This document shows positions 11,221-56,998 of a DNA stretch of 64,000 nt, one piece after another; position 1 is the stretch's first letter, and each line of letters starts with the position of its first letter. The notes under the pieces were generated by a model. That model worked only from the letters and a program-made list of their open reading frames with translations. It made no database searches and was not told the origin of the DNA. The position numbers and the translations under genes are program-made. Origin of the DNA: Carallia brachiata (taxonomy: Eukaryota; Streptophyta; Magnoliopsida; Malpighiales; Rhizophoraceae); NCBI GenBank assembly GCA_021464245.1, contig JADCRB010000019.1, forward strand, positions 3,748,595 to 3,812,594, written 5' to 3'.

Positions 11221-13842
11221 ATGGCCCAAAATGCAAAAACACCTCTGCATCCTCCAACTTATGGAAAGCTAATCACCGTTCTTAGTATTGATGGCGGTGG
11301 AATTAGAGGGATCATACCAGCAACCCTCCTCAGCATTTTAGAGTCCGAGCTTCAGGTAGAAATAGGGGGCCTTTTTTAAAGGCCCACTGCTTGCATGTTC
11401 TCGAAACTTTGATAGTATCCTTGGTGACTAGAAGAAAGCAAATGTCATGAATCTGGGAAGCTGGAATTACATCATTAAATACATTCATGCATGCATTCGT
11501 GCAAAAGGGGAATACTTAATTAATTGTAACATTTCTCTTGTCATCCTAGCTGCGTAGTTCAGCGGTACAGCTACATTATGATTTTAATCTGTACATCCAA
11601 TGATTATAAAAAGTACAGTAAAATTACTCTTGCTAGTTATATGGATGGGACTAAAGCTTAAATCCCAAAGGAAAATACCAAGAGAATCATTGTTTAAGCT
11701 GGCGGCGGCACAAGTTGATGCCATTTGCACCCCAAGAAATGAAACACAAAAAAAGTCTCATCTCCTTATTCTCTACATCTCAAAATGCTAATTAACCAGT
11801 TGTTTTGGCTCTTCCACATGTACAGAAACTGGACGGTAAAGACGCAAGGATTGCAGACTATTTTGATGTGATTGCAGGGACTAGCACTGGCGGCCTCATG
11901 ACCTTGATGCTAACAACCCCAAATGATAAAAATCGCCCCTTGTTTGCTGCTAATGAAATCACTGATTTCTATCTCGAAAACTGCCCCAAAATCTTTCCCC
12001 AACAAAGGTATTTTCATGAATCCTCAAGGATGCCCCAAATTGAATATTATTAACTTTAAAATTCCCATCACGATGCTAATGGAATCTCTTTCACCATAGT
12101 TTTCTCGTGGCAACAGTCGAAAATTTCTTAGCAGGACCTAAATATGATGGCAAGCACTTGCATAAGACTGTCAGGGAAAAACTGGGAGACAAACGGTTGC
12201 ACGAGACATTGACAAATGTTGTGATCCCAACATTTGACATAAAGCAACTCCAGCCTACAATCTTCTCCAGCTATGAGGTACAAAAGTATCCAGTACTGGT
12301 AGCAAAGTTGCGTAAACTCGTTATGTTTGTGCTCCTTTTCTATTTATTGCATGGGAGAACTTATTATATATTGGCGTCCACATTTGACTCGTCTTGACTG
12401 TCCACACTCCTGATCAGGTGAAGAATGACCCGAGCTTGGATGCCCCATTATCTGATATATGCATTGGAACTTCAGCTGCCCCAACTTATCTTCCATCCCA
12501 TTATTTTGAAACCAAAAGTTCAACAGGAAAAGTGAGAGAATTCAATCTTGTTGATGGCGGTCTGGCTGCAAACAATCCGGTATATCTATTATCTATTAAT
12601 TGGTTATCAACCTCATTCCATGTTGTGCGGAAAGTTATCCACAGTTTTTATGTGATTCATTAACATTCAAAAATTTTTAGGCATTTATTGCTATAAATGA
12701 AGTGATGAAAGAAATCAAACGCGGGAACAAGCAATTCGGAGGCATCCAGACAACTGAGTACACACGATTTCTTGTTCTATCCTTAGGAACTGGGGAAGCT
12801 AAGAATGAGGGAAAATACTCTGCCAAAGAAGCTGCCCAGTGGGGCATATTGGAATGGTTAAGCAGCAACAACGGCAGTCCTTTGATTGATAGCTACATGC
12901 AAGCTAGTGCTGACATGGTTGATATTCATATGACCAGCCTTTATCAGGCCCTCGGCTGCGACGAGAGCTACATCCGAATTCAGGTATTATATCACAGTGT
13001 GAAAAATGTAGACGCTAACATCATCACATAAGAAAAAAGAGAAGGAACGACTACAAGAAAACAAGTCTCTAGGTCTGCAAATATTAGAGACGAACGATAA
13101 CTAATAAATCAAGTTGGGTATACATGCCACGATGGGCTCAATTTTGGACTCTTTATTCATTAATGAATTTTTCTGGCTTTTAGAAAAAAAAAAAAAAGGA
13201 ACAAAAAAATAAAAAAACACCAACCTCGTCGTCAAAGTTAGATAGTCAAAAGCAATAGTAATTTCTCTGCCGCTATCTAACTAAAAATGGAATCTACGAC
13301 GAAAAACAGGATGATACACTTACCGGAACAATGACAGCGATGGATATTGCCACCGAAGAAAACTTGCAGAATCTTATTACAGTGGCTCAGAAGCTACTCA
13401 AGAAACCACTATCAAAGGTGAATTTGAGCACGGGCTGCTTTGAGCCTGTTGGTAAGGGTACAAATGAAGAGGCACTAATAAGGTAATACATTTACATATG
13501 ATTAATGTCACTCCCTAAGGAATTTGTTGGCATATGAGCAATTTTTTTTTCTATCTTGGAAGAGGGGTCAAAGCCCCACAGAGTAGGAGGCTAGTGAGGA
13601 AAGATGGAGTTCGAATCCCGCGACTGCAAGAAATAACACGTTTCTTTGCACTCGATTTACACCGACTCCTCTTAGCATATTTGCATTGGATTACACAATG
13701 TTATGCATAACTCCCATTTTGACTTTCGAGTTTTTTACCATGTATTGGTTTATTTGAGAGGGTTCCATTTGAATTCTGTAGGTTGGCTAAAGCACTCTCA
13801 GATGAAAAGAAGTGTCGTCTATCTCAAGTTGCATCCAACTGA
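11221..13842 (+). CDS. Patatin-like phospholipase/lipid acyl hydrolase (PLP-type), intact, 7 exons
   Basis: Exons: 11221-11355, 11826-12007, 12100-12277, 12418-12579, 12681-12983, 13310-13482, 13782-13842; all introns GT-AG; 397 residues, about usual for plant patatin-like proteins (~400). It starts [10 protein letters not shown] and has the oxyanion loop DGGGIRG (residues 24-30), the nucleophile elbow GTSTGG (Ser65) and the catalytic DGG (Asp211), the complete Ser-Asp dyad of the patatin family. [15 protein letters not shown] follows in the C-terminal half. No signal peptide or membrane segment is seen, so a cytosolic, membrane-associating enzyme releasing fatty acids from phospho- and galactolipids is expected. 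Close relatives respond to wounding and pathogens; nothing here shows regulation. It is the only intact member of a three-copy cluster. The exact subgroup (PLP1/2/3-like) cannot be set by eye. Confidence 0.92.
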
Positions 13843-14349
13843 ATAATGATAAATGCCATCATTCAGCTGCTACATAGGATGTTCAAATAAATGTACATGG
13901 ATAATGATAATGCTAATATTTCATTTCATAGCCATGTACTCCCAATATGTAATCTTTGAATAATGATGTACCGGTGGAACACCTCAATAAACAGATCGAG
14001 TCCAGGACTTGCAATTTATTAAAGTTCTAACAAGGGCTTCAATCCTTTTCTGTAATTTGACTAGCATCCAATAATAACATTGCTTGACCTGTATGCCCAA
14101 AAAAAAAAAAAACATTGCTTCACCTATACGAAAAACAGATCCGAAATTGAAAGTTTTAATTTGAATTACTTTATCAATTCTACTGTAAGAGTTAGACCCA
14201 GTTTCCAATTTCACATTGTTTTAGTTCGGTGAAATTGAATCAGAGAAATCACTGCTGGTCATTGTGACATGCATTTTCGAGTTATAAAGAAAAATTAGGT
14301 TGCAAGCAGAAATTGTTTTGTTATGTTTTCCATTGTTTACATTTTTTAG

Positions 14350-22807: not shown

Positions 22808-23434
22808 TGTAAAGCGTAAATTTCGAGGTTAAAACAATTAAACTCGAAAATACAAAAATAAATTACAAATAAAAATTGTAAAAGAAAAGAAAATTTACGT
22901 GGGGTCGATCTCCGTAGATCCTCCGATTAGTGTTCCTTTTTTTTGACTCCGTCAAGGGCTGCACGAGCTTGATCTGGACAGAAATAATTTCCACCGCTTT
23001 TTCTTGAACTGGATAGACTGAAACTGTGTCTGATTTGGATGTTTTGACTACGTTTAGGAACCGTAGAGACTCGATCTGAGCTGATCTGACTTAATTTCAC
23101 CGAGGGTCGAATGGACTTGTTCTCGGATGAGTTGCCTGGATTTTGCTGAGGGCCGTATGAGACTTAATCCCAGCCGGATTTGTAATATTTCGATTTTTTT
23201 TTTTTCTTGCGCGCTTCGCTGCTGGCTTCTCTTTTTTCTTCTTCTTCTTCTCCTCTGCTTCTTCAATTAATTGGGGAGGCCATTTATAGGCCTCCCCCAA
23301 GCCTGCCTGCCACCAACCAAATGGTTGGTGGCATTAATTAATTAGGTTGGCAGCTGCCAACCTTCAAGGTTGGCGGCTGCCAACCATATAATTATTATTT
23401 TTTTTTAATTTTTATTTTTTTTTATTAGTTTACA
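22808..23434 (-). repeat. 3' LTR of the gypsy element
   Basis: 627 bases, nearly identical to 32133-32768. On the minus strand it opens TGTAAACTAATAA and closes CGCTTTACA. A TATAAA box sits at 23288-23283. A palindromic ggttggcagctgccaacc-type block is present twice here (about 23340-23390) but only once in the partner LTR, a length difference useful for dating. Confidence 0.93.
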
Positions 23435-23449
23435 GATGCCCCCACTTCA
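23435..23449 (-). other. Polypurine tract of the gypsy element
   Basis: On the coding (minus) strand, tgaagtgggggcatc directly precedes the 3' LTR. This purine-rich stretch is where plus-strand DNA synthesis would be primed. Confidence 0.6.
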
Positions 23450-24369
23450 AGGGTCGGTAAGAAAGATTTTTTACAGAGATAATTCGAACCGAGTCTTGAA
23501 GTCCAGTTTGAAATTTGGAAAGTCCTGATGAACATTGAATCTTGGAGTCTTCTATCTTTGACCATGTCCGCTGTTGTTGGATCGCAATAGAAAACCGATA
23601 TGATCTTAAGGAAGTTAGCAGCCCAGCCAATATAAAAATTGAAGTCTTGGCTCCAGGTGCGTTCGAGCTTCCATGGCTGGCAAAGGCTGGCAAAGGTTCT
23701 TTGAAGTTCCAAAGCTCTGGTGAGGATGATCCAGTAGGCAAAGAACTTGAACCTCCCCAAGAGGAAGGCCCAGGACCTTGGAACTTCAAGACCTCACACA
23801 AGAGACTGACTGTAGTGATGATTCCTAAGTCTGCTTCGACGTAAGGAGAGTAGTTGGAACTTCCCCGTACATCGCCGCATCCAAAGGAAGATTAGGATAA
23901 TTGCAGCGTCTCATCCCTCTGTAGTAGATGTGAACTAAGGAGAGTAGTTGGAACTCCATGACACCGATGGCGTTAGGGATCCCCTCGAGGAAGACTACTC
24001 CTTCTTTTCTTAGCTCGTGCGCCTCCAACTTCTTGATCGAAGAACTTCCTGAGACAAGTGCAGAGACTAGCCATTTTCTTTTGAGAAAGAAAAGCTGAGG
24101 GGTGAGTATTATAACTCGGGAATGCAAGATATATATACATGCGATAAAGTTTTTTTTGTTTTTTTTTTTTTGTTTTTTTTGTTTTTTTTTGTTTTTTTGA
24201 AAAGTCAAAAAGAAGGTACGCAGATTCGAGTAGGGCCATCCACGTCCCTTTCCTGCATAAGAGACAACAGAGGCAGCGGCTGACGCGTGACACGAAAGTC
24301 GTTACCGTGTGTTGCAGAAGTCGTTGCCGTGTGCTGCCAAAGTCGTTGCACCTTATCTTGTCGGCCGTC
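23440..24369 (-). other. Unassigned internal segment of gypsy element (possible second transduced piece)
   Basis: On the minus strand there is a TATA-like tgtatatatat at about 24138-24128. About 55 bases later an A-rich leader ends in ATG at 24074 (MASLCTCLRKFFDQEVGGAR). That frame closes after about 34 codons, while neighbouring frames stay open for 111-127 codons (23825-24208, 23425-23760, 23430-23801). A direct repeat of gttccaactactctcctta occurs at about 23847-23865 and 23936-23954. I recognise no domain. It may be another captured genomic fragment with its own leader, or simply 3' untranslated element sequence. Confidence 0.35.
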
Positions 24370-24980
24370 CTAGCGGGGCCCGAGGCGCAACTCCAAGTCA
24401 AGCTCGACCTCGTCTGGTGGGCCGATGATGTTGACGTCGCTTTCTGGCTGGTTGATGCTGCCGGAATATTCTGGAAAGAGAGGCAAAATTTCGCCGGAAT
24501 GACTCCTGTGTGCTAGAAAAATTCCTCCTAGACTTAAGTATCTAGGAGGGATGAACCCTTGGCTGACTCCGTGAAACCACCAGGACCAGTATGTATGCTC
24601 CCATAGGCTACGGCTTTGATGAACGTACCGTGGAGAGACCATTGCAGTGGTAGAACTTGGGCCGGCTTCATTTGAGGGTGAAGCTGTACTGGTGAGATCT
24701 ACTATAGGAACAACAGCTGTGCTTTGGAAATACCATCTCTCAGCGCCACTGTTTCCCTATGTCTCCGATTCTGGAACCAAAAATATACATTTTTTCCTTC
24801 GACTGCCCCTAGCGGGCGAAGTCGTGAGACAAGTTGGAGAATCTGTGTAGAGTTAGGGACAATACCTCCATCGTTGTAGAAGACTTCCTCCAAAATTTGC
24901 AGTTGTGCCATGGTCGGTTGCCACCTTGTGCGAGGTGACCTTTCTTCTCCCTTGTCTTGAGGTTCTGCAACTGGTTCCAT
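24370..24980 (-). pseudogene. WUSCHEL-related homeobox (WOX) sequence captured by the gypsy element
   Basis: From ATG at 24980 (MEPVAEPQDKGEERSPR) the frame gives a plant WOX homeodomain at 24929-24753. It starts TRWQPTMAQLQILEEVF, has the expanded WOX loop, and ends in recognition helix GKNVYFWFQNRRHRE. Just after RHRE the frame must shift by one base; the next frame runs N-S-G-A-E-R-W-Y-F-Q and continues to a TAG at 24372-24370. It contains a WUS-box-like ILPLFPEY (LPLFP at 24486-24472) and a terminal EAR repressor motif LDLELRLG (24402-24382). Homeodomain, WUS-box and EAR in this order is the architecture of WUS-clade stem-cell regulators. No intron is evident. It lies in the same sense as gag-pol, between pol and the 3' LTR, so it would be carried in the element RNA. 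The frameshift makes it formally broken, and the parent gene is unknown. Confidence 0.78.
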
Positions 24981-25066
24981 CTTTCTTGCACAGAGGAGCA
25001 AAGGTCTTGGTATGTGGTGAAGATCGGTTGAGACTGATGCTGAGTTTCAGATCAAACCCTCCGTCG

Positions 25067-25074
25067 TTTTATAT
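25067..25074 (-). promoter_or_regulatory. TATA-like box upstream of the captured homeobox frame
   Basis: ATATAAAA on the minus strand, about 90 bases before the ATG at 24980, followed by a leader of non-element appearance. It suggests that promoter-proximal sequence may have been captured with the coding region. Alternatively it is chance in AT-rich DNA. Confidence 0.35.
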
Positions 25075-25320
25075 TTTTGGGCCGTTCACAGTTTATACTC
25101 ATGCGGGCCAGGAGTTGGATTGGATTTTGAACTTGGGTTCTGGACTATATTTGGGACTTGGAATTTTTGGGTTTTGGGCTTTGGATTGGTTTTGGGTCGA
25201 GTGTTTGAGTTTTGGAATTGGATTTTTGGATTTGGGTTGAGTGTTTGGGTTTTGACTCTGAATTGGGCTCAAGTGTTTGGGTTTGGACTTTCGCTTGGTC
25301 TTTCAGATCGGGACTTCGCA

Positions 25321-25452
<132 letters not shown>

Positions 25453-25456
25453 ATAT

Positions 25457-26600
25457 TTACACATAATACTGTTTCAGAAATTTACCATTGATTGGGCCGA
25501 TTCGGACGCCTTCTTGGTCTGACAGCATGTAAGCGTTGTGAGTGTAGGCCTCCTGCACTAAGTATGGCCCGTCCCATTTGGAAGTAAGCTTGTCACCAGG
25601 CCGATGCTTCATGTTGATGGGCCGTCGCACTGCAAGAACAAGGTCTCCAACTTGAAAAGATCGAGGGCGGACCCTGCGGTTGAACGTGTTGGTGAGCCGG
25701 GCTTGGTAGCACTCAAGTTGCTGTTGTGCTTCGAGCCTCCTTTCATCGAGAGCTTCTAACTCATCCAGACGTAGGCGAGCATTCTCCTCCTGTGTGAGTC
25801 CTTCCAGAACAGCCATGCGCAGGATGGAATCTGTGTTTCCAACGGCAGTATTGCTTCGACACCGTAGACAAGTGAGTATGGCGTCGCCTGTGTTGGAGTC
25901 CGGTAAGTTGTACGATACGCCCATAATGCCTCCGGAATTCTGTCATGCCAATCTCTTTTGGATTTAGAGACTACCTTCCGCAACAGGTTGCATAAGGTCT
26001 TGTTGAATGCTTCGGCCAAGCCATTTGCTGGGGCATTGTACATGGATGACTTGTACTGCTTGAACTTGAACTTCTCGCAGAGCTTGTCGATTAAGCTGTT
26101 GTAGAACTGCTTACCATTATCAGTGATGATGAATCGAGGGACTCCATAGCGATAGATCAGCTGAGTCCGGATGAAATTGGCAACATGCTCCTTCTTTACC
26201 TCTCTAAGTGGAATGGCTTCAGCCCATTTTGAGAAGTAGTCGGTTGCTGCGAGGATGTACAGGTGACCCAGGGATGACTTTGGCAAGGGCCCCACTAAGT
26301 CGAGACCCCAAGCTTCAAAGGGCCAGGATGAGACAGTTGGATGCAGTGGCTCCGGTGGTTGATGTATGTAATTCGCATGAAATTGACAAGCTTGACAGTT
26401 TTAGCAAACTCAATTGAATCACGTACCATGGTTGGCCAGTAGTATCCCATCCTTCTGAGTTGGAAGTGCAACTTAGGCCCGATTGATGTCCGCCACAAAC
26501 ACCAGAATGTGCTTCAGTGAGAGCCTGTTTTGCCTCTTCATTGGCTAGGCAGCGAAGTAGAACTCCATCAAAAGACCTTCGATACAGAGCATCCTTGAGA
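25457..26600 (-). pseudogene. Gypsy integrase (zinc-binding, core and C-terminal regions)
   Basis: On the minus strand the HHCC zinc-binding part (VCGGHQSG, LRRMGYYWPTM, then CQACQFHA) is at about 26545-26380. The core follows, with AATDYFSKWAEA, ITDNGKQF and NGLAEAFNKTL supplying the D, D and E catalytic residues (26250-25995). The C-terminal part has NRRVRPRSFQVGDLVL, KWDGPYLVQEAY and NGKFLKQYY. The protein would insert the element cDNA. At least two frameshifts break it, near 26400 (before CQACQ) and near 25800-25870, so no single intact integrase is encoded as read. Confidence 0.85.
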
Positions 26601-26677: not shown

Positions 26678-28620
26678 TCAATGATTGGTTGGCGCCAATC
26701 TCGTCCTCCGCGAGACGTATAGATACAGCGTTGGCTGCTGTAGTTTCTTCATCATCCTTTGTGGCACTATCCATTTCTGGCATACGGCAACAACTGTAGC
26801 CTGGATTTCTGACTTTGCAAGAGAAGTGGCCAGGTTAGCCAACGCGTCTGCCTGAGTGTTTTCTCGTCGAGGCACATGCTCCAAGGTGATGCTTTCAAAT
26901 TCATCCATTAGCTGTCGAGCACGTTGATGGTAAGGCGCAAGGTCCTCTTTCTTCACGTCATACAATCCTGTAAGTTGGTTGATGACGAGCTGGGAATCTC
27001 CATGGACTTCTATAGTTGGAATCTTCATATCGACAGCCATTTGAAGACCAATGATCAAAGCCTGGTATTCAGCAACATTATTTGAACATAACTCACCGAG
27101 AATGATAGCATATGGTAGTATTTGTCGTTGAGGAGTGACAAACACTATGCCGGCACCAGCACCATCACGCCTTGCTGCACCATCAAAGAACATCGTCCAT
27201 GGTGGTAGTGTCTCAATGTAAAAGACCTCTTCATCTGGAAGATCATCTGTGAACTCCCAATCTGACGGAACAGGGTGATCTGCAAGGAAGTCTGCTAGAG
27301 CTTGTCCTTTGACTGCTTTTTGAGGCACGTAGACAATGTCGTAGCTTTGTAGGATTACTGCCCACTTGGCAAGTCGTCCTGACAAGATTGGTCTGGATAA
27401 GATATATTTGACAGGATCAGCTCTGGCAATGAGACGTACCGTGTGAGCTTGCATGTAGTGCCTCAGCTTGTCAATGGCAAAGAACAGTGCTAGACATGTC
27501 TTTTCAATGGGCGAATAACTCAGCTCCGGACCGTTTAGTGTTCTGCTCAAGTAGTACAGGGCAACTTCCTTTCCCTGCTCATTTTCCTGTGCAAGCAAGG
27601 CTCCCAAAGATCTTTCCTGCGCTGCAATGTAGAGAATCAACGACTTTCCTTGAATTGGAGCACCTAGGACCGGTGGATTGGAAAGTACTTCTTTATGCTC
27701 AAAGGCTTTGCTGCAAGCTTCGTCCCACTCGAAGTTGACATCCTTCTTCATCAACCGATGGAAAGGTTGACATCTCCCAGCTAAATTGGAGATGAAACGG
27801 CGAATGTAGGCCAGCTTTCCTTGTAGACTTCGCAGCTCGTGCAGGTTTTTAGGTTCAGGCATCTTTTGAATTGCCTCAACCTTTGACTGATCAACTTCGA
27901 TTCCACGATGGCGCACCACGAACCCAAGAAACTTTCCTGATGTGACACCGAATGCGCACTTGAGAGGGTTCATTTTGAGCTGATGCCTCCGAAGTCTTTC
28001 GAACACTGTCTTGAGATCCTCGAGGTGGTCTTTGCGCTTCTTAGTCTTTACAACTAAGTCATCAACATAACATTCTACAATCTTGTGCAGCATGTCATCA
28101 AAAATTTTTTGCATAGCACGTTGATAAGTGGCGCCAGCATTTTTCAATCCAAACGGCATAACTTTGTAGCAGTATATACCTTTTGGGGTGCGGAATGCTG
28201 TCAACTCCTCGTCTTCTGGTGCCATTCTGATTTGGTTATAGCCTGAAGAACCATCCATGAAGACAATGCTTCGTGACCCGTTGTTGCATCGACTGTGATC
28301 TCCGTTATGGGCAATGGAAAGTCATCTTTCGGGCAGGCCTTGTTAAGATCTCGAAAATCAAACATACCCTCAACTGTCCATTCTTCTTTCTTACCGGGAC
28401 AATGTTGGCAATCCACGTTGGGTAGGTGACCTCTCGGATGAAGCCAGCATTGATCAGCTTGTTCACCTCCTCCTCGATTTGTGGAATGAGTTCCGGGCGG
28501 AACCGTCGTTGTGGCTGCTTGACAGAACGACACCCTTCTTTACTGCTAGACGATGCACCGCAATTTTGGGTCAAGTCCAGGCATTTCTTTGTAACTCCAT
28601 GCGAACACGTCCCTGTATTG
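26678..28620 (-). pseudogene. Gypsy reverse transcriptase with two RNase H domains
   Basis: The largest open frame (28258-26678, 526 codons) begins inside RT at MDGSSGYNQIRM. It carries MPFGLKNAGATYQRAM, the catalytic YVDD (YVDDLVVKT), then the first RNase H (GALLAQENEQGKEVALYYLS). A second archaeal-type RNase H follows (MFFDGAARRDGAGAGIVF, GDSQLVINQL, HVPRRENTQADALANLA). The RT N-terminus lies upstream in other frames at 28574-28305 (RPELIPQIEEEVNKLI, VPVRKKNGQLRVC) and 28533-28201 (DFRDLNKACPKDDFPLP). This region therefore has at least two frameshifts. The dual RNase H places the element in the Tat lineage. All catalytic residues I can place are intact. Confidence 0.9.
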
Positions 28621-28961: not shown

Positions 28962-29935
28962 CTAAGCCAGGTCGGGACTGTGATGTTTGAGAAGCGGCGC
29001 CATGTGTGGACGGCAGCGTACCCATTGTGCTCGGGTTTGAAAGTCATAGCCCGCCTTTGCCAAAAGCTTGTATGCATTAGGATCAAATCCTTCATGTGTT
29101 CTTCTTTCTGGAAGTGAGCCGCCTTCGACTGCCCCCGTGTGTGGTTTGACGAAGCCTTTTAATGGTTTTGAAGACAAAACCGGCTCAATCTTTGGTATCG
29201 GCAGAGTGTAAGTCTCCTTCAGGTTGTGCAGCTCCTTTGTTTTGGGTTGGCTATGACCTTGCTCCTGTTTAAGATCAATACAATAAGAGAAAGGGGGTTG
29301 ACCTTCTGAGCGTCGTGACTTCGGCACATAGCGTAGGACTGGAGTGGAGCTTGAAGATGCAACATCCTTCGGACGAAGTTCAGCAGGCTGTGGCAGCTTT
29401 TCATTTGTTGGAGCCTGGGGTTGGGCATTGGCAGGTTCTTCGACAGCTTTTCCCTTTTTGTGGATGCCCCCAGTCCAAGTAGCTTTTGACGGAATGATCT
29501 CCGGATTGTCTGTGTCAGTGTAGAAGACTGCATCCGCCAAATGTGATTCAGCATCATCGAACGGCTTTAAGTCAGCATTGACCTTTTGAACGCCACCATT
29601 GTAGTACTTGAAGCACTGATGCAGGCTTGAGAGCACAACTCCATTTCCATGAATCCACGGTCGTCCTAGCAACATCTTATATGTGGTACGTGCATCAATC
29701 ACGTGAAATAGAGTGCTAGAAGTGAGATTACCGATAGTTAGCTCCAAGCGAATCATCCCAATTGCTTTCTGTCCTCCTTGATTAAAGCCATGAATCATCA
29801 AGCGGCTGTCTGATAATTCATCAATGCCGATGCCGAGCTCCTTTATGGTGGATTTTGGGATAATATTGACTGCTGAGCCATCGTCGATCAGAATACGTCG
29901 ACCTTCTGTTCTTTCACATAGCCTGATACATACAG
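28962..29935 (-). pseudogene. Gypsy aspartic protease and linker to RT
   Basis: The active-site motif ILIDDGSAVNIIP is at about 29900-29860 on the minus strand. It is followed by the 279-codon frame 29801-28962 with IHGFNQGGQKAIG, FHVIDARTTYKMLLGRPWIH and a long Pro/Ser/Lys-rich linker. The LLGRPWIH segment is characteristic of plant gypsy proteases, which process the Gag-Pol polyprotein. The linker frame closes at 28962 and resumes in another frame (29025-28546), so the polyprotein is interrupted here too. Confidence 0.8.
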
Positions 29936-30149
29936 CGGCCGATTGTGGGGTTTGGACCCCAGCAGGAGATCCTCATCTGAAAATGAGATAGCAGAGTAAC
30001 ATCCGACGTGATTTTGGTCCGCCTGTTGCTCCGCTGAGTTAGATCATTTGATGGCTGTGATTCAGCTGAGGTCTGGAGAGTATTGCTGACTTGATTTTGC
30101 CACACTTCTGTTGATTGCAAAGCTATAAACAGCTGAGGGTTAGCGAGAA

Positions 30150-31934
30150 GGGTTTGGAGAGCTTCATATACCTTCTCCGTTGTCGACTTTTTGTTGTCGA
30201 GCGGCTCCTCCTTACGGTGTGTCACTCTTCTGATGGTTTTGAAGTGATGGTGGTCTGGTTTGCCGAGGTTATGCCTTCCTGGTCCAGAATGATTTTATTC
30301 TGGCTTTTGAGCTTCATGATTAGCTCCTTCAGGACGAAACACTTCTCGGTTGGATGACTTACTATCCGGTGATATTTGCAGAATCTGGATCGCTGACTCG
30401 ATCCTTTTCATTCGGCCGCTTGCACTCTGGGAGTTCGATCAGCTTCGCCTCCAAGAGTTGTTCAAGAATGTCGGGGACGTCTGAGTCGGGGAATGGATAC
30501 TGCTTCTGCTCCAACTCTCGCAATGTCACCTTCCGCCTTTCCTGTTGTTTTGGCTGAGTTATTTGGGTCGGAGGATTTACCTTAGCTTTGGCGCCCACTT
30601 TTACTGGTGCGGCTTCAACAGTCATCACTTCTTTCCTTTTCCGGAGCTGTTGGGTTTCTTAATCTCCCTTCTGCCCCCTTGCTGGTCCAACTGGATGGGA
30701 ACCGTGCCTCCGGAAGTCTGGATGCTTATCTCCATATCATGTGCGCGGGTCGCCATTCTTCGAAAGTTCGGGGTTTGACACCCTGCAGGATGTATAACAG
30801 CTCCCAATGCATTCCCTGGATGCACATCTCACGGCAGAAGTCTCCGTCAGGCGATCTTTGCAGTCCAAGCTGAGGGCACGCCATCTGTTGATGTATTCGA
30901 CAACGGGCTCTCCTTTCTTTGTTTGGTGCTGGTAAGCTCCATCATACTTACCGTCCTTCGAGTGCTGAAAAATCTGTTGAGGAACTCTCGTTGTAGCTGT
31001 TCCCAACTGTCGATCGATTCTGGTTCAAGATTTATGAACCAGGTGAAAGCGGTCTCCCTGAGTGAACGAACAAACTGCTTCACCAAGAGATCTCCATAAG
31101 TCCCTGCGTTGTTGCAGGTTTCAACGAAGTGGGCGATGTGCTGTTTGGGATCGCCTCGTCCGTCGAATTGTTGAAATTTGGGCGGCTGGTGTAGCCCAAG
31201 GGCATGTTGAGACTTTCGATCCGTCTGGTGTACGGTTTGACGTACATCTGTGATCCTTGGAAGGATGTAGCTTGTTGCAGTCGGATCGTATTGGCTATCA
31301 TTTCCTGCAATTGTTGAACAGATAGCGAAGCTACAGAATTTGAGGGTGGCAGCTGTGTAGAACTACCTGGTCGCTTTTCTGCAGGGAAGACGTCGGCTGG
31401 TGTGGCTTCTGGAGTGAAACCGGGTGGATATGGTTGCTCCTCGCGGATTTCGGGATCAACTTGGATCGGGGCTTTTCCTTGAGAGCTGCGATCTGTTGAT
31501 CTTTTTCCTCACGACTCTGATCAGCTGTAAAATTTTGTTCTCCAATTCTGAAATCCTATTTTATCTGTGCTGGTTGTGTTGGTCATCATGACGGCAACAG
31601 ATGAGGCTCCGGGAAAGACTGGGGGAGAAAACTCTTCTGATTCTTCTGTGTGATCTCTCAGAATGAGTTGGATTGTTGAGCAGGTTTCGTCGTTGCCCCC
31701 GACTTCGATCGGGGTGGGTGATCGACTCCTCCATGCGGCAAGAGAGTCAGGGGAGAGATCCTGTTGTGCGAGCTGTGGACTCTCCATTTCGACATTTTGT
31801 CGGGTTTGGACGGCAAGAAATTGTGTCCGTCCCCGGGTTTCTGGACCTGCGTACCCAGGTAGGGTAGTTGATGCAGGCAATGGAGCCGTTGCCTTCTTTT
31901 TTGTGGCAGCAGTTGTACTCCTTTTCGGTGCCAT
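30150..31934 (-). pseudogene. Gypsy gag, frameshifted
   Basis: The presumed start is ATG at 31934 (MAPKRSTTAATKKKA), 198 bases downstream of the 5' LTR. The first frame closes at 31521. The conserved capsid (retrotrans_gag) part is spread over other frames: PYTRRIESLNMPLGY (about 31240), FDGRGDPKQHIAHF and NNAGTYGDLL (31170-31090), VKQFVRSLRETAFTWFINLE, EFLNRFFSTRRTVSM (31086-30930) and [18 protein letters not shown] (30910-30850). Gag forms the particle that packages element RNA. At least four frame changes are needed to read it through, so this copy cannot make an intact Gag. Confidence 0.8.
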
Positions 31935-32108
31935 TTGATGTGCTGAACACCTGTAAAATTTTTTTTTTTTTTTACTTTTACTTTTTACTTTTTTTTACTT
32001 TTTACTTTTACTTTTTTTTTACTTTTTTTTTTTTTTTTTACTTTTTACTCTCGGCTCCCCTTTTACCTCTTTTTTTTTTTTTAGGAACAAGAGATGGGAG
32101 GTGAAGAT

Positions 32109-32126
32109 GTCCCACCGAGCGTGCCA
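32109..32126 (-). other. Putative primer-binding site
   Basis: TGGCACGCTCGGTGGGAC on the minus strand begins six bases inside the 5' LTR edge, with the TGG expected opposite a tRNA CCA end. The priming tRNA was not identified. Confidence 0.55.
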
Positions 32127-32132
32127 AAAATT

Positions 32133-32768
32133 TGTAAAGCGTAAATTTCGAGTCTAAAACAATTAAACTCGAAAATACAAAAATAAATTACAAATAAAAA
32201 TTGTAAAGTAAAAGAAAATTTACGTGGGGTCGATCTCCGTAGATCCTCCGATTAGTGTTAGTGCTTTTTTGACTCCGTCAAGGGCTGCACGAGCTTGATC
32301 TGGACAGAAATAATTTCCACCGCTTTTTCTTGAACTGGATAGACTGAAACTTGTCTGATTTGGATGTTTTGACTACGTTTAGGAACCGTAGAGACTCGAT
32401 CTGAGCTGATCTGACTTAATTTCACCGAGGGTCGAATGGACTTGTTCTCGGATGAGTTGCCTGGATTTTGCTGAGGGCCGTATGAGACTTAATCCCAGCC
32501 GGATTTGTAATATTTCGATTTTTTTTTTTTTACTATCTCTCTTTTTTTTTCTTTTTTTTTCTTTTTTCTTTTTTTTTTTTTTTTTTCGCCGCTGCTGCGC
32601 TTCTTTTCTTTTTCTTCTTCTTTTCTCTTTGCTGGCTTGTTTTTTCAATTGGGGGGAGGCCAATTTATAGGCCTCCCCCTGCCTGCCACCAACCATTTGG
32701 TTGGTGGCAGTTAATGAGGTTGGCAGCTGCCAACCATTTTTTTTTTTTTTTTTAATTATTTGTTTACA
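32133..32768 (-). repeat. 5' LTR of the gypsy element
   Basis: 636 bases, matching 22808-23434 with a few indels and substitutions, mostly within T-rich tracts. The TATAAA at 32669-32664 on the minus strand would start element transcription. An adjacent ctccccc palindrome and a T/C-rich tract follow. Confidence 0.93.
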
Positions 32769-44042: not shown

Positions 44043-44767
44043 AATAATATTTTTTCCTTGTTTACGGTAAGAGGAACCAACAAGAATTGCAAAGGACGCT
44101 TTTCCTCAAAAAAAAAAAAAAAAAAAACCGCCACGCAAAGAAAGAAATAGAGACGGAAAATCGAGAAAGGGCAAGAAAAAAGAGAGTGGGTTGTCAACGC
44201 CTCAACGCCAAGTCTCTGGCCAAACGCATGAAGACACGGAAAGAGCATTCTTCGAAAAAAAAAAATGCAACACTACTGACTAGTTTTAATTAAATAATAT
44301 TAAAATAATAACTTATTTTTTTATTATTTTAAATTCAATCATTTAATAATTTATTAAATCAATTCACCTATTTAATATTATGTCATTCTTATATTTAATT
44401 TTATTATATATTAATAAATCTCGAACTCACGTTCACACTTAATATCGTAGCTATTCGGAGTATAAGAATAGTATTCGGAAACGTGATAAGTAGGAGTACA
44501 TTTAATTTGTCCAAAAATTTATGGTCAAGCTCGTGCTTTCTTCCGTCCTCTCCGTTGGGTTGGGTCCCACCTTAACATCGCTCTTTGTCCCCACCTTCGC
44601 TCTTCGCTAGTTTTCTACTTCTCTTGTCTTCGTGTCTTCGTCCTCTTCCTCCGCTCACCTACCCTGCCCCGTTCCCATCTTCTAGGGCGCTGTCTTCGCC
44701 AGAAAGAGAGACACTTAGGCAAAGCCGATTGGCTGACTCGGAGCAGCTCAAGTAAGTGAGCGGTACG

Positions 44768-51142
<6,375 letters not shown>

Positions 51143-53904: not shown

Positions 53905-56900
53905 CTCCTCTTCAAGCTGGAACATATATATCATATGTTCTCAGCTTGTTACAAATGTAACTAACCCGTGAACTACCCAGAGGTTTGGTAAATAAATTCG
54001 CTAATTGATCTTCTGACTTTACATGCTTTGTCTCAACAATCTTCTGCAAAAGTTTCTCTCGAACAAAATGACAATCAACTTCAATGTGCTTCGTTCTCTC
54101 ATGAAAGACTGAATTGGAAGCAATATGAATAGCAGCTTGGTTGTCACATATCAAATCCATAGGTTGTGAATGGTCAATTCCAAGTTCATGCAACAGACTC
54201 TTCATCCAGATTAACTCACAAGTAGCATGGGTCATAGCTCTGTATTCAGATTCTGCACTAGATCTGGCAACAACAGCTTGTTTCTTACTCTTCCAAGAAA
54301 CCAAATTACCTCCCATAAATATACATTATCCTGTAGTCGACCTTCTATCAGATGGCGATCCTGCCCAATCAGCATCACAATAACCTTTAATTTGAGTATG
54401 ACCATAACTTTGGTACAATAAACCTTGACCTGGAGCTCCCTTAAGATATCTCAAAATACGTATCACAACTTCCCAATGACTTGTTCTGGGAGCATCTAGA
54501 AGCTGACTTACCACACTCACTGCAAAGGAAATATCAGGCCTTGTGACAACAAGATAGTTTAGCTTGCCAACCAATCTTCTGTACCTTCTTGCATCCTCAA
54601 ACAATTGCCCTTCATCACGACAAAGCTTGATATTCAGGTCCATAGGACTGTCAATGGGTTTAGAGCCCAACATACCAATCTCACTCAATAAGTCCATAAC
54701 ACATTTTCTTTGAGACAGGGAATGTCATGGTGTGATTTAGCCACTTCTATCCCTAGAAAATATCTCAACAGTCCCAAATCTTTAGTTTGGAATTTAGTCT
54801 GTAAATAGGCTTTTAGTTGCTGAATTCCCTTAGAGTCATCACCTGTAATCACAATATCATCCACATAGACAATCAATAGTATTTTACCTGCAATAGAATG
54901 CCTGTAAAAAACTGTATGTTCAACTCCACATCTTTAAAGACCAAATTCCATCACGACGTTGCTAAATCTACCAAACCATGCACGAGGAGATTGTTTCAAA
55001 TCATAAAGGGATTTTTTCAATCGACAAATTAACTCAGACTCTCCCTGAGCAACAAACCCAGGAGGTTACTCTATATAAACTTCCTCATCAAGATCACCAT
55101 GTAAGAAAGCATTTTTTATGTCTAATTGATGCAAAGGCCAATTATGGATAGCAGCCAATGAAAGAAAAATTCTTACAAAGGCAAACTTAGCCACATGAGA
55201 GAATGTTTCTAAATAGTCGAGACCAGGTATTTGAGTGTATCCTTTAGCCACCAAACGAGCCTTCAACCGTTCAACTGAGCCATTTGGATAAACTTTCACA
55301 GTATACACCCAACGACAGCCAACAACAGATTTATTAGGAAGAAGAAGAACAAGTTCCCATGTATCATTTTGTTGTAATGCAACCATCTCTTCTTCCATTG
55401 CTCTCCTCCACCCAGAATGGCATAAAGCCTCAGGGACAGACTTGGGTATATCAATAGAAGATAAAGTAGTAACAAAAGCATGATATGAAGGAGAAAGGTG
55501 AGCAAATGAGACATAATTAGAGATAGGATGAGAGTGCATTATCTAGTACCTTTTCTAAGGGCAATAGGTAGATCCGAATCAGCATCAGAGGAGAGTGTAG
55601 GAGCTGGATTTTTAGACAAATGGTCGACTGGCAGAGCACTAGAGTCAACAGGCAGTTGTACCTTGCGACGGGTATACACTTGTAAATTAAGACTAGACAA
55701 ACGATCTGACAAATTATTTAGGGGTAGAGTTGCAGTCAGAGGTATATCCATAGAAATAGGAGAATGAAGGGTCAGAGATTGAACAATGTCACTAGTAAAC
55801 GATGGGTCTGAATAATAAGGTGTAGATTCAAAGAAAGTCACATCTGTACATATAAAGAATTTGTGTAACACAGGATTATAACAACGATAACCCTTTTGTG
55901 TTCGAGAATAGCCTAAAAATATGCACTTAACAGCACGAGGACTCAACTTGTCAACTCCTGGACGAAGTTGGTGAATAAAACACACACATCCACATATACG
56001 TGGTGGCAATGGATACAAAAATTCATGAGGAAATAAAACTCTATGAGGTGATTGGTTATCAAGCACAGATGATGGCTGAAGATTAACTAAAAAATAAGCT
56101 GTGAGAACAGCATCACTCTAAAATGATTTGGGAACATTCATGTGTATCAAGAGGGTTCGAGCTACTTCTATAAGATGCCTATTCTTTCTTTCGGCCATCC
56201 CATTCTGTTGTGGTGTATGAACACAAGATGATTGGTGAATAATACCAAAAGTAGTCATGAAATCTTTAAAGGGGTTGGAAAAATATTCAGTAGCATTGTC
56301 ACTTCGAAGTATGCGAACCTGTAAATCAAATTGGGTTTTAACCTCAGCACAAAAGGCATGAAAGATAGAGAATAATTCAGACCGATCTTTCATTAAATAA
56401 AGTCATGTAACTCTTGAATAATCGTCTATAAAAGTAACAAATTATCGAAAACCCAAACTTAGAGTTGACTCGACTATGACCCAAACATCTGAATGAACTA
56501 ACATAAAAGGACATGATGCCCGTTTATTAACCCGATAAGGAAAAGAAATGCATTGATGCTTGCCTAACTGACATGACTCACAATCTAATGACTTAACATG
56601 ACATAAACTGGGAATTAAAATCTTCAAGGACTCCAAAAAGGGATGACCAAGACGACAATGAATTTGGAGAGGTGAAGCAACAACTGTGCAGACGATTGTT
56701 GATGGAGAAGGATCAAAATAGTAAACGCCATTCGACTCATGTCCTCCACCAATTGTCTTTTTTGTCTTCAAATCCTGGATAACAACAAAATCAGGGTAGA
56801 AAGAGACAGAACAATTTAAATTTTTGATGAGTTTACTAACAGACATAAGGTTAAATGGAAAAGAAAGAATATAAAAGTAGATGACAAAGAAAGAGAAGAA

Positions 56901-56998
56901 TTGAGTTTTACAGTTCCTACACCACTGACACTAATCGTGGAACCATCAGCCAATGTAATTTTGGGCAATGTACTGGAGTATTGTAAGTGAGAAAAAAT
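53794..56998 (-). mobile_element. Decayed, 5'-truncated Ty1/copia retrotransposon
   Basis: Read leftward it gives pol in broken frames. GAG-pre-integrase is at 56846-56540 (CRLGHPFLESLKILIP, DCESCQLGKHQCISFP). Integrase follows (SDNATEYFSNP, HTPQQNGMAERKNRHL at 56393-56118). RT is at 55539-54685 ([61 protein letters not shown]). RNase H ends it (CDADWAGSPSDRR, SSAESEYRAMT, DNQAAIHIAS, 54697-53912). Stops or shifts occur at about 56400, 56100, 55540, 55070, 54900, 54720 and 54320. Gag and the 5' LTR are missing; homology stops at a MITE-like repeat at 56999. The polypurine tract is gcttgaagaggag (about 53918-53905, minus). It is an immobile fossil lying between two genes. Confidence 0.9.

Follow-up and report, generated by a model that had tools for sequence, protein, structure and literature searches.

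A WUSCHEL-like accessory gene carried by a high-copy family of Tat-type LTR retrotransposons in Carallia brachiata

A WUSCHEL (WUS)-like gene is a regular part of a high-copy family of Tat-type Ty3/gypsy retrotransposons in the genome of Carallia brachiata. Very probably it is a retained accessory gene derived from WUS, as judged from its identity as WUS, its constant place in the element, the large number of copies, the reading frames left intact in many of them, dN/dS ratios below the neutral level for most pairs, and survival in recently jumped elements that have lost gag and pol. WUS is a homeodomain protein of the nucleus, and it represses its targets with the help of TOPLESS-type co-repressors, which bind through its WUS box and EAR motif. 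The gene was noticed in a stretch of 64,000 nucleotides (hereafter the window; contig JADCRB010000019.1, positions 3,748,595 to 3,812,594), where a first-pass annotation had described the capture of a WUS-clade sequence inside a retrotransposon. The WUS-like cargo was upheld, and it turned out to be a standing component of the family as a whole, beyond this single copy. The genome searched comprises 337.5 Mb in 164 contigs, with the window on contig 78.

The element of the window lies on the minus strand, and its WUS-like gene is in the sense orientation relative to gag-pol (Table 1). In Pfam searches, gag, a weak protease, reverse transcriptase (RT), RNase H, RVT_3 and integrase follow each other in the order fitting a minus-strand element. 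The claimed position of the gene in a Tat-type gypsy element, in sense after pol and ahead of the 3′ LTR, was upheld. The Tat signature is present: RVT_3 occupies residues 379-498 of the ORF at 26678-28321, after RT_RNaseH and with rve downstream. According to the text of a survey of gypsy elements, Ogre/Retand elements of the Tat lineage are ordered in this way, with their extra RNase H placed after the first one and before integrase (PMC6317226).

Table 1. Features of the window element and of the second recurring ORF region (window coordinates unless a copy is named)
Feature	Position	Strand	Evidence or remark
5′ LTR, 636 bp, TGTAAA...TTTACA	32133-32768	-	self-BLAST and alignment; termini by eye
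Primer-binding-site-like stretch TGGCACGCTCGGTGGGACA	32108-32126	-	adjoins 5′ LTR
gag region, several frames	30847-31994	-	Pfam Retrotrans_gag 4e-8 at 30847-31362
Protease region, weak	28962-29972	-	Pfam gag-asp_proteas 0.0049, short of the cut-off
RT, RNase H and additional RNase H	26678-28321	-	Pfam RVT_1 2e-30, RT_RNaseH 4e-23, RVT_3 8e-25
Integrase core	25756-26400	-	Pfam rve 4e-11
Integrase C-terminal part, SH3-like	25457-25942	-	Pfam SH3_Tf2-1 4e-4, short of the cut-off
Poly-A-like tract (T on + strand), gap between pol and leader	25321-25448	-	Tandem Repeats Finder
TATA-like box TATAAA of leader	25073-25068	-	93 bases before ATG
WUS-like gene, first half, ORF of 114 aa, ATG at 24980	24702-25046	-	
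WUSCHEL-type homeodomain, residues 39-98 of first-half ORF	24753-24932	-	Pfam Homeodomain 7.1e-10
WUS-like gene, second half, different frame, 128 aa	24370-24756	-	
WUS box EILPLFPEY	24466-24492	-	second-half frame
EAR-like LDLELRLG near stop codon	24379-24402	-	second-half frame
A-rich tract 3′ of WUS-like gene	24149-24198	-	Tandem Repeats Finder
Second recurring sense ORF region	23430-24301	-	from WUS-like gene to 3′ LTR
Second recurring sense ORF region, copy L044	L044:2214-2888 and L044:2677-3297	+	from WUS-like gene to 3′ LTR
Polypurine-tract-like AGTGGGGGCATC	23435-23446	-	adjoins 3′ LTR
3′ LTR, 627 bp, LTR-like with TGTAAA...TTTACA	22808-23434	-	self-BLAST and alignment

The gag-pol part of the window element is scattered over many frames, and the ORF 31521-31994 within the gag region gave no match in a Pfam search. 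A target-site duplication is absent (flanks ATGAG and ATCTT), and one part of the two LTRs has 390 identical sites among 397, but U3 is strongly different, with many indels. The window element is best taken for a copy that is old or has recombined; the missing duplication and the unequal LTR divergence suggest that it is likely the product of recombination between elements, and LTR-based dating was rejected on the same two grounds. The primer-binding-site-like stretch also stands directly after the LTR of another copy, L049+L044, and the polypurine-tract-like stretch reads AGTGGGGGCATT in L044 and L021. A Retand-type antisense Transposase_28 (TRP28) ORF was not found between pol and the 3′ LTR of the window copy, where four of the five plus-strand ORFs have no Pfam match at E <= 1 and one has a chance match at 0.17; the nine window ORFs tested gave no match to Transposase_28 or the plant mobile domain (PMD).

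Several other features were observed in passing. Repeats of 22 bp (CAACGACTTC-like) lie just 3′ of the WUS-like gene (window 24295-24349), and a longer array occurs at L021:2187-2329, in a copy that bears gag and is devoid of pol. Elsewhere in the window, 1-1844 and 12158-14017 are duplicated at 84-88% identity with exons that look by eye like those of a patatin-like phospholipase, the exons at 44756-49627 (+) resemble by eye NADPH-cytochrome P450 reductase, and the frames at 53912-56930 (-), from translations read by eye, resemble a Ty1/copia element.

The WUS-like gene of the window is broken. A single frame break separates the homeodomain from the C-terminal half, as the first-pass annotation had it, and 24 of 40 copies fetched from the genome are unbroken. 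The WOX homeodomain claimed for this locus was confirmed by a positive profile search, which places it at 24753-24932 (Pfam Homeodomain, 7.1e-10), and by a search of the PDB, in which WUSCHEL was matched at 1.3e-16, ungapped over 63 residues, and STENOFOLIA at 2.6e-14 with one gap. On these scores, the homeodomain match is judged well above chance level. The motifs follow in the order of WUS proteins, homeodomain, LPLFP and EAR-like LDLELRLG, the latter two in another frame. The Pfam EAR model reaches only E 0.005 on this copy, below the cut-off; what makes the two short motifs more credible is the order in which they stand and their presence in unbroken copies. The TATA-like box predicted some 90 bases upstream is found at 93 bases before the ATG. 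Protein searches with the broken, derived copy of the window yielded 17 and 13 candidates, none of which scored as a match, and a search of viral contigs yielded four pattern matches, none confirmed. AlphaFold on a single window ORF gave a mean pLDDT of 52, and the model was set aside.

When the genome was queried with the 114-aa ORF, 2037 first-look candidates were obtained, and the best 150 were scored. All of these 150 have an E-value of 7.1e-51 or lower and an identity of 75-100%. In 146 the match contains no stop, and a stop-to-stop open frame of at least 200 aa exists at 107. Forty of the best 150 places, hand-picked across the score range, were fetched with their flanks. Downstream of the gene, all 40 have a same-strand match to the window LTR, and 33 have a same-strand integrase within 1.5 kb upstream. 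An intact frame was defined as a single frame of 195-215 aa from the last Met before the homeodomain to the stop. Such a frame, with 203-209 codons, is found in 24 of the 40, which bears out the earlier suspicion that other copies may be intact; this fraction is biased upward, as the 40 came from the best-scoring 150. The remaining 16 are cut, extended, frame-shifted or outside the length criterion. All 24 intact copies have the homeodomain and LDLEL[RHA]LG, and 22 have a clean [TI]LPLFP box, which is degenerate in the other two (ETLSLFP in L041 and EILPLFQ in L043). ETLPLFP occurs in L042, L044 and L047, and EILPLFP in the window copy, the window subfamily, L024 and L048. No intron interrupts the 24 intact frames, and A-rich tracts lie near the gene and also elsewhere in the element. 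The absence of introns may speak for capture through RNA, and the TATA box of the conserved leader, which a captured mRNA would not bring, may speak against it.

The copies fall into two types. The window type, with NVYFWFQNRRHRET and EILPLFP, includes 17 intact copies that share 98.9% or more of their DNA sequence, and from this similarity the subfamily appears to be a recent burst and very young. The older and more varied type (L041, L042, L043, L044, L047 and L048) differs from the window copy by 11-13% in DNA and has NVFYWFQNRRSRKK, with ETLPLFP in three of its six copies. Its protein matches WUSCHEL in the PDB with 72.1 bits (E 2.8e-19), above the score of the window type, and Pfam Homeodomain at 2.2e-12, with Pfam EAR again below the cut-off. 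The presence of ETLPLFP in half of these copies and the higher WUSCHEL score suggest that the ancestral element protein was probably more WUS-like than the window copy.

A protein search with the older-type query found 429 relatives at E <= 0.01, the best at 6.3e-18. Among the best 120 of the 429, 54 bear a WUSCHEL name and the others are mostly hypothetical or homeobox proteins; 119 carry plant names, and two WUSCHEL proteins of Podostemaceae cover 91% of the query. Identity does not exceed 53% throughout these 120, so the element protein itself is absent from them; records of its own genome may be left out. TLxLFP is found in all of these best 120 relatives, and LxLxL within the last 40 residues in 115. 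The homeodomain spans a window of 63 residues in all 120 listed relatives and all nine element proteins compared, versus 62 in STENOFOLIA. One extra residue in loop 1 is described as marking WUS among WOX homeodomains (text of PMC5471313), and it is present in the nine element homeodomains. Among the homeodomains of the best 120 relatives the median pairwise identity is 94% (minimum 79%), whereas those of the element reach a median identity of 46-52% to these WUS-like proteins. Of 51 near-invariant positions of the WUS homeodomain, the nine element proteins keep 28-31 and have changed 20-23. By these comparisons the element protein seems to be derived from WUS and to be no ordinary orthologue. 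In a small tree with STENOFOLIA alone as the outgroup, the element clade is monophyletic (support 1.0), with a long branch of 0.78, and is basal to the WUS sequences. Since the element homeodomains are about 50% identical to WUS and the branch is long, the gene would be either very old in the element or fast-evolving.

The leader with CTCCTGGCCCGCATGAGTATAAACTGTGAACGGCCC and TATAAAA is near-identical in both subfamilies, and TATAAAA is kept in 18 of 19 sequences inspected, the exception being L010. Tandem modules of about 44 bp stand directly before the gene at L044:1200-1460, L047:961-1413 and L027:848-1502, all in copies without integrase, and most of these modules carry another GAGTATAAAAGGCGAC box. 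The conserved TATA leader and the box-bearing modules suggest an internal, amplified putative promoter. An 8-bp minisatellite (CAGCTCAA-like) precedes the tandem arrays. A scan of the window LTRs for WUS sites counted 19 TAAT in the 3′ LTR against 7.4 expected (0 of 300 shuffles) and 10 in the 5′ LTR against 5.9 expected (P 0.08); TTAAT[GT][CG] gave P 0.017 and 0.46 in the two LTRs, and TTAATGG, TGAATGAA and CACGTGA occur in neither. Enrichment of TGAA in the tandem array traces to one repeated module. As the enrichment of WUS sites is mixed between the LTRs, self-binding of the LTRs by the WUS-like protein is not claimed.

Seven of the 40 copies have no integrase within 1.5 kb upstream (L021, L022, L027, L029, L042, L044 and L047), and they match the window LTR only partly, at 74-84%. 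In L044 and L042 the leader region immediately follows an LTR end, and no more than weak remnants of gag and of the integrase end are seen; L021 has gag and no pol match, and for L022, L027, L029 and L047 loss of pol is presumed. L049+L044 forms a full-length unit, 5028 bp long, that has LTRs of 993 and 990 bp (LTR distance 0.006), a perfect 5-bp duplication (GAGTC), primer-binding-site- and polypurine-tract-like stretches, no match to the window RT and a WUS-like frame of 209 aa; with LTRs, both priming-type stretches, a duplication and no pol, it has the make-up of a non-autonomous LTR element. A second unit, L050+L021, has the duplication GGCCG and an LTR distance of 0.017, with the start of the WUS-like gene out of frame. 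Among the seven, the WUS-like frame is intact in three (L042, L044 and L047). The group holds both window-type and older-type WUS genes, so the module would have been exchanged between LTR families. The recent jump of an element that lacks gag and pol and keeps an intact gene strongly hints at a benefit from retaining the gene, although the stretch with the gene may also be kept in such elements for cis-acting reasons.

In L044 the WUS-like frame is the sole ORF of a Pfam family among ten tested. Two further sense frames, of 224 and 206 aa from stop to stop, lie downstream of it and have no Pfam match. Of the 40 copies, 33 have a frame in this region starting with M.RR.G.FQLL, and in 17 it stays open over 140 codons or more, likewise with no Pfam match; a second small accessory gene may be travelling along.

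Selection was assessed by dN/dS (Nei-Gojobori, own script) between three window-type copies (L010, L033 and L034) and the six older-type copies. The ratios are 0.37-0.48 for L042, L043, L047 and L048, 0.53-0.57 for L041 and 0.66-0.73 for L044, and those among the older-type copies are 0.27-0.60. In a neutral simulation conditioned on an open frame the median is 0.82, and the 5th and 1st percentiles are 0.57 and 0.51; four of the six older-type copies fall below the last. In pairs with L010, dN/dS is about 0.32-0.67 in the first 88 codons, which include the homeodomain, and about 0.43-0.78 in the C-terminal part with the box and EAR motif; against the intermediate copy L024 the two values are about 0.3 and about 1.0. 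The homeodomain half thus appears better kept than the C-terminal part, and Fisher tests on seven L010 pairs, with rounded site numbers, gave P from 7e-5 to 0.17. Taken together, these ratios point to purifying selection that is moderate and not uniform, as seen through tests that are non-independent because the copies share history.

The gene might also be a passive passenger, hitch-hiking in a family that has recently burst, with frames open through youth alone. The youth of the window type, with its 17 nearly identical intact copies, would fit this, as would the 16 of 40 fetched copies without a frame of 195-215 aa, the high ratios of the L044 pairs and the looser constraint on the C-terminal part. 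However, the frame is kept in both subfamilies, which lie about 11-13% apart in DNA, and a simulated neutral lineage with 73 substitutions in 609 bp stayed stop-free in just 6.5% of trials, indels not counted. As the older-type ratios mostly lie below the neutral 1st percentile and the gene outlasts gag-pol, we consider a mere passenger unlikely. Elements might instead have inserted in or beside a WUS paralogue of the host, or in or beside a nested DNA transposon or Helitron with such a gene on board. This could produce a lone copy of such appearance, and the window element indeed has no target-site duplication. Yet integrase before the gene and an LTR after it, on the same strand, recur in 33 of 40 copies, and two units without gag-pol or without pol are bounded by LTRs and 5-bp duplications. 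These data refute a host paralogue or Helitron as a general explanation, leaving it a very slim chance.

The retained accessory gene could have come from a WOX-clade donor other than WUS, for example of the WOX1/STENOFOLIA or WOX5 type. Helix 3 of the older type reads NRRSRKK, which differs from NHKARERQ of WUS and presumably recalls intermediate-clade WOX proteins, and the basal place of the element clade in the one-outgroup tree would agree with such an origin. The WUS-specific loop-1 residue, ETLPLFP with the C-terminal LxLxL, and the WUS-like character of the best 120 of 429 relatives argue for WUS instead, and another donor seems quite improbable. Extra ORFs are common in Ogre/Tat/Athila elements, being present in most of them according to the text of PMC6317226, and a standard Tat accessory ORF might resemble WOX by convergence. 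This hardly deserves credence and is refuted by matches of E 6e-18 to a WUSCHEL protein and 3e-19 to the WUS structure chain, with collinear motifs at both ends of the protein and with Transposase_28/PMD unmatched in the nine window ORFs.

The element protein is like WUSCHEL in the extra loop residue, ETLPLFP in some older-type copies, the C-terminal LxLxL, a MEP start (also in 50 of the best 120 of 429 relatives) and a spacing from box to EAR motif of 31-37 residues (29-35 from LDLEL; three copies), compared with 27-64 in WUS-like proteins. It is unlike WUSCHEL in its different middle region, its length of 203-209 aa, and in being high-copy and element-borne. Neumann 2019 sorted extra ORFs of gypsy elements into 314 groups, with known domains in 21.4% of the extra-ORF sequences (text of PMC6317226). 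Among host-gene cargoes of plant LTR elements, the text of PMC9289625 names a LONELY GUY-type domain, an RNA demethylase and a B3 domain. The LONELY GUY-type (YgdH) ORF of Citrus and Populus LTR elements, for which that paper cites Steinbauerova 2011, is likewise a host development gene in several copies, but its domain comes from a cytokinin-pathway protein and it is no transcription factor (PMC9289625). The RNA demethylase (2-ODD, ALKBH-like) of a Phalaenopsis gypsy element is likewise a captured gene kept across subfamilies; it is an enzyme with activity shown in vitro, whereas the WUS-like gene is a regulator by homology (PMC9289625). The B3 DNA-binding domain in Aegilops tauschii LTR elements is likewise a plant transcription-factor domain, of another fold and no WUS-type gene, and is only named in a list there (PMC9289625). 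Transposase_28 and PMD ORFs of Retand/Ogre elements are likewise extras of the Tat lineage with a suspected regulatory role (PMC6317226; PMC11963269). The Retand ORFs described by Vicient 2025 also lie between pol and the 3′ LTR, but are antisense and of TRP28 type, while the gene here is in sense and of WUS type (text of PMC11963269).

The main texts of PMC11963269 and PMC7264820 do not mention a homeodomain, WUSCHEL or WOX cargo, nor does that of PMC9289625 mention a homeodomain or WUS cargo or that of PMC6317226 a homeodomain cargo. The literature searched, mostly outside subscription journals, showed no precedent for a WUS or WOX cargo in an LTR element, in agreement with the first-pass statement that no described WUS-clade cargo in a Tat element was known to its author. 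The elements with the LONELY GUY-type domain in the 2011 work of Steinbauerova are reportedly Athila-like. Gene capture as such is of a known kind. What is new, as far as we have seen, is that the captured gene is a regulator derived from WUS which became a lasting accessory gene and persists where gag and pol are lost.

How the gene came to be kept may be pictured as follows. An ancestral Tat-type element would have acquired WUSCHEL from its host, as the gene or as cDNA, in the interval from integrase to the 3′ LTR, and the captured gene would have become a regular accessory gene with a TATA leader, 203-209 codons, a homeodomain, a WUS box and an EAR-like end. The protein would be made from the internal promoter and then enter the nucleus, where a new helix 3 may have altered its DNA specificity and TOPLESS-type co-repressors may be recruited through the WUS box and EAR motif. 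Acting in trans, it would benefit the family as a whole; the likeliest ways would be that it represses genes of the host or competes with the WUS protein of the host. By analogy with WUS, such a repressor role in trans is a serious possibility to which we give slightly less than an even chance. For the element gene, the label of stem-cell regulator would denote homology.

Shoot stem cells found the germ line. This, along with the part that WUS takes in excluding RNA viruses from stem cells (PMC10589665, text citing Wu 2020), makes a stem-cell link attractive, and action in the cells giving rise to the germ line may be entertained as a doubtful further step. A bolder version holds that the gag-pol-less elements amplify a WUS-derived repressor that would imitate or block host WUS and so raise transmission of the family, as a selfish stem-cell factor. 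The shortened elements also hold open frames without a Pfam family, which lowers the odds of this version, and it seems rather improbable.

The retained accessory gene would mean that a descendant of WUSCHEL, a master regulator of plant stem cells, has become with its repression motifs a lasting component of a transposon family, seemingly under selection and, in some elements, surviving the loss of gag and pol. A possible influence of plant transposons on the founder cells of the germ line thereby becomes directly testable. In the Carallia lineage, counts of WOX genes can be inflated by transposon copies.
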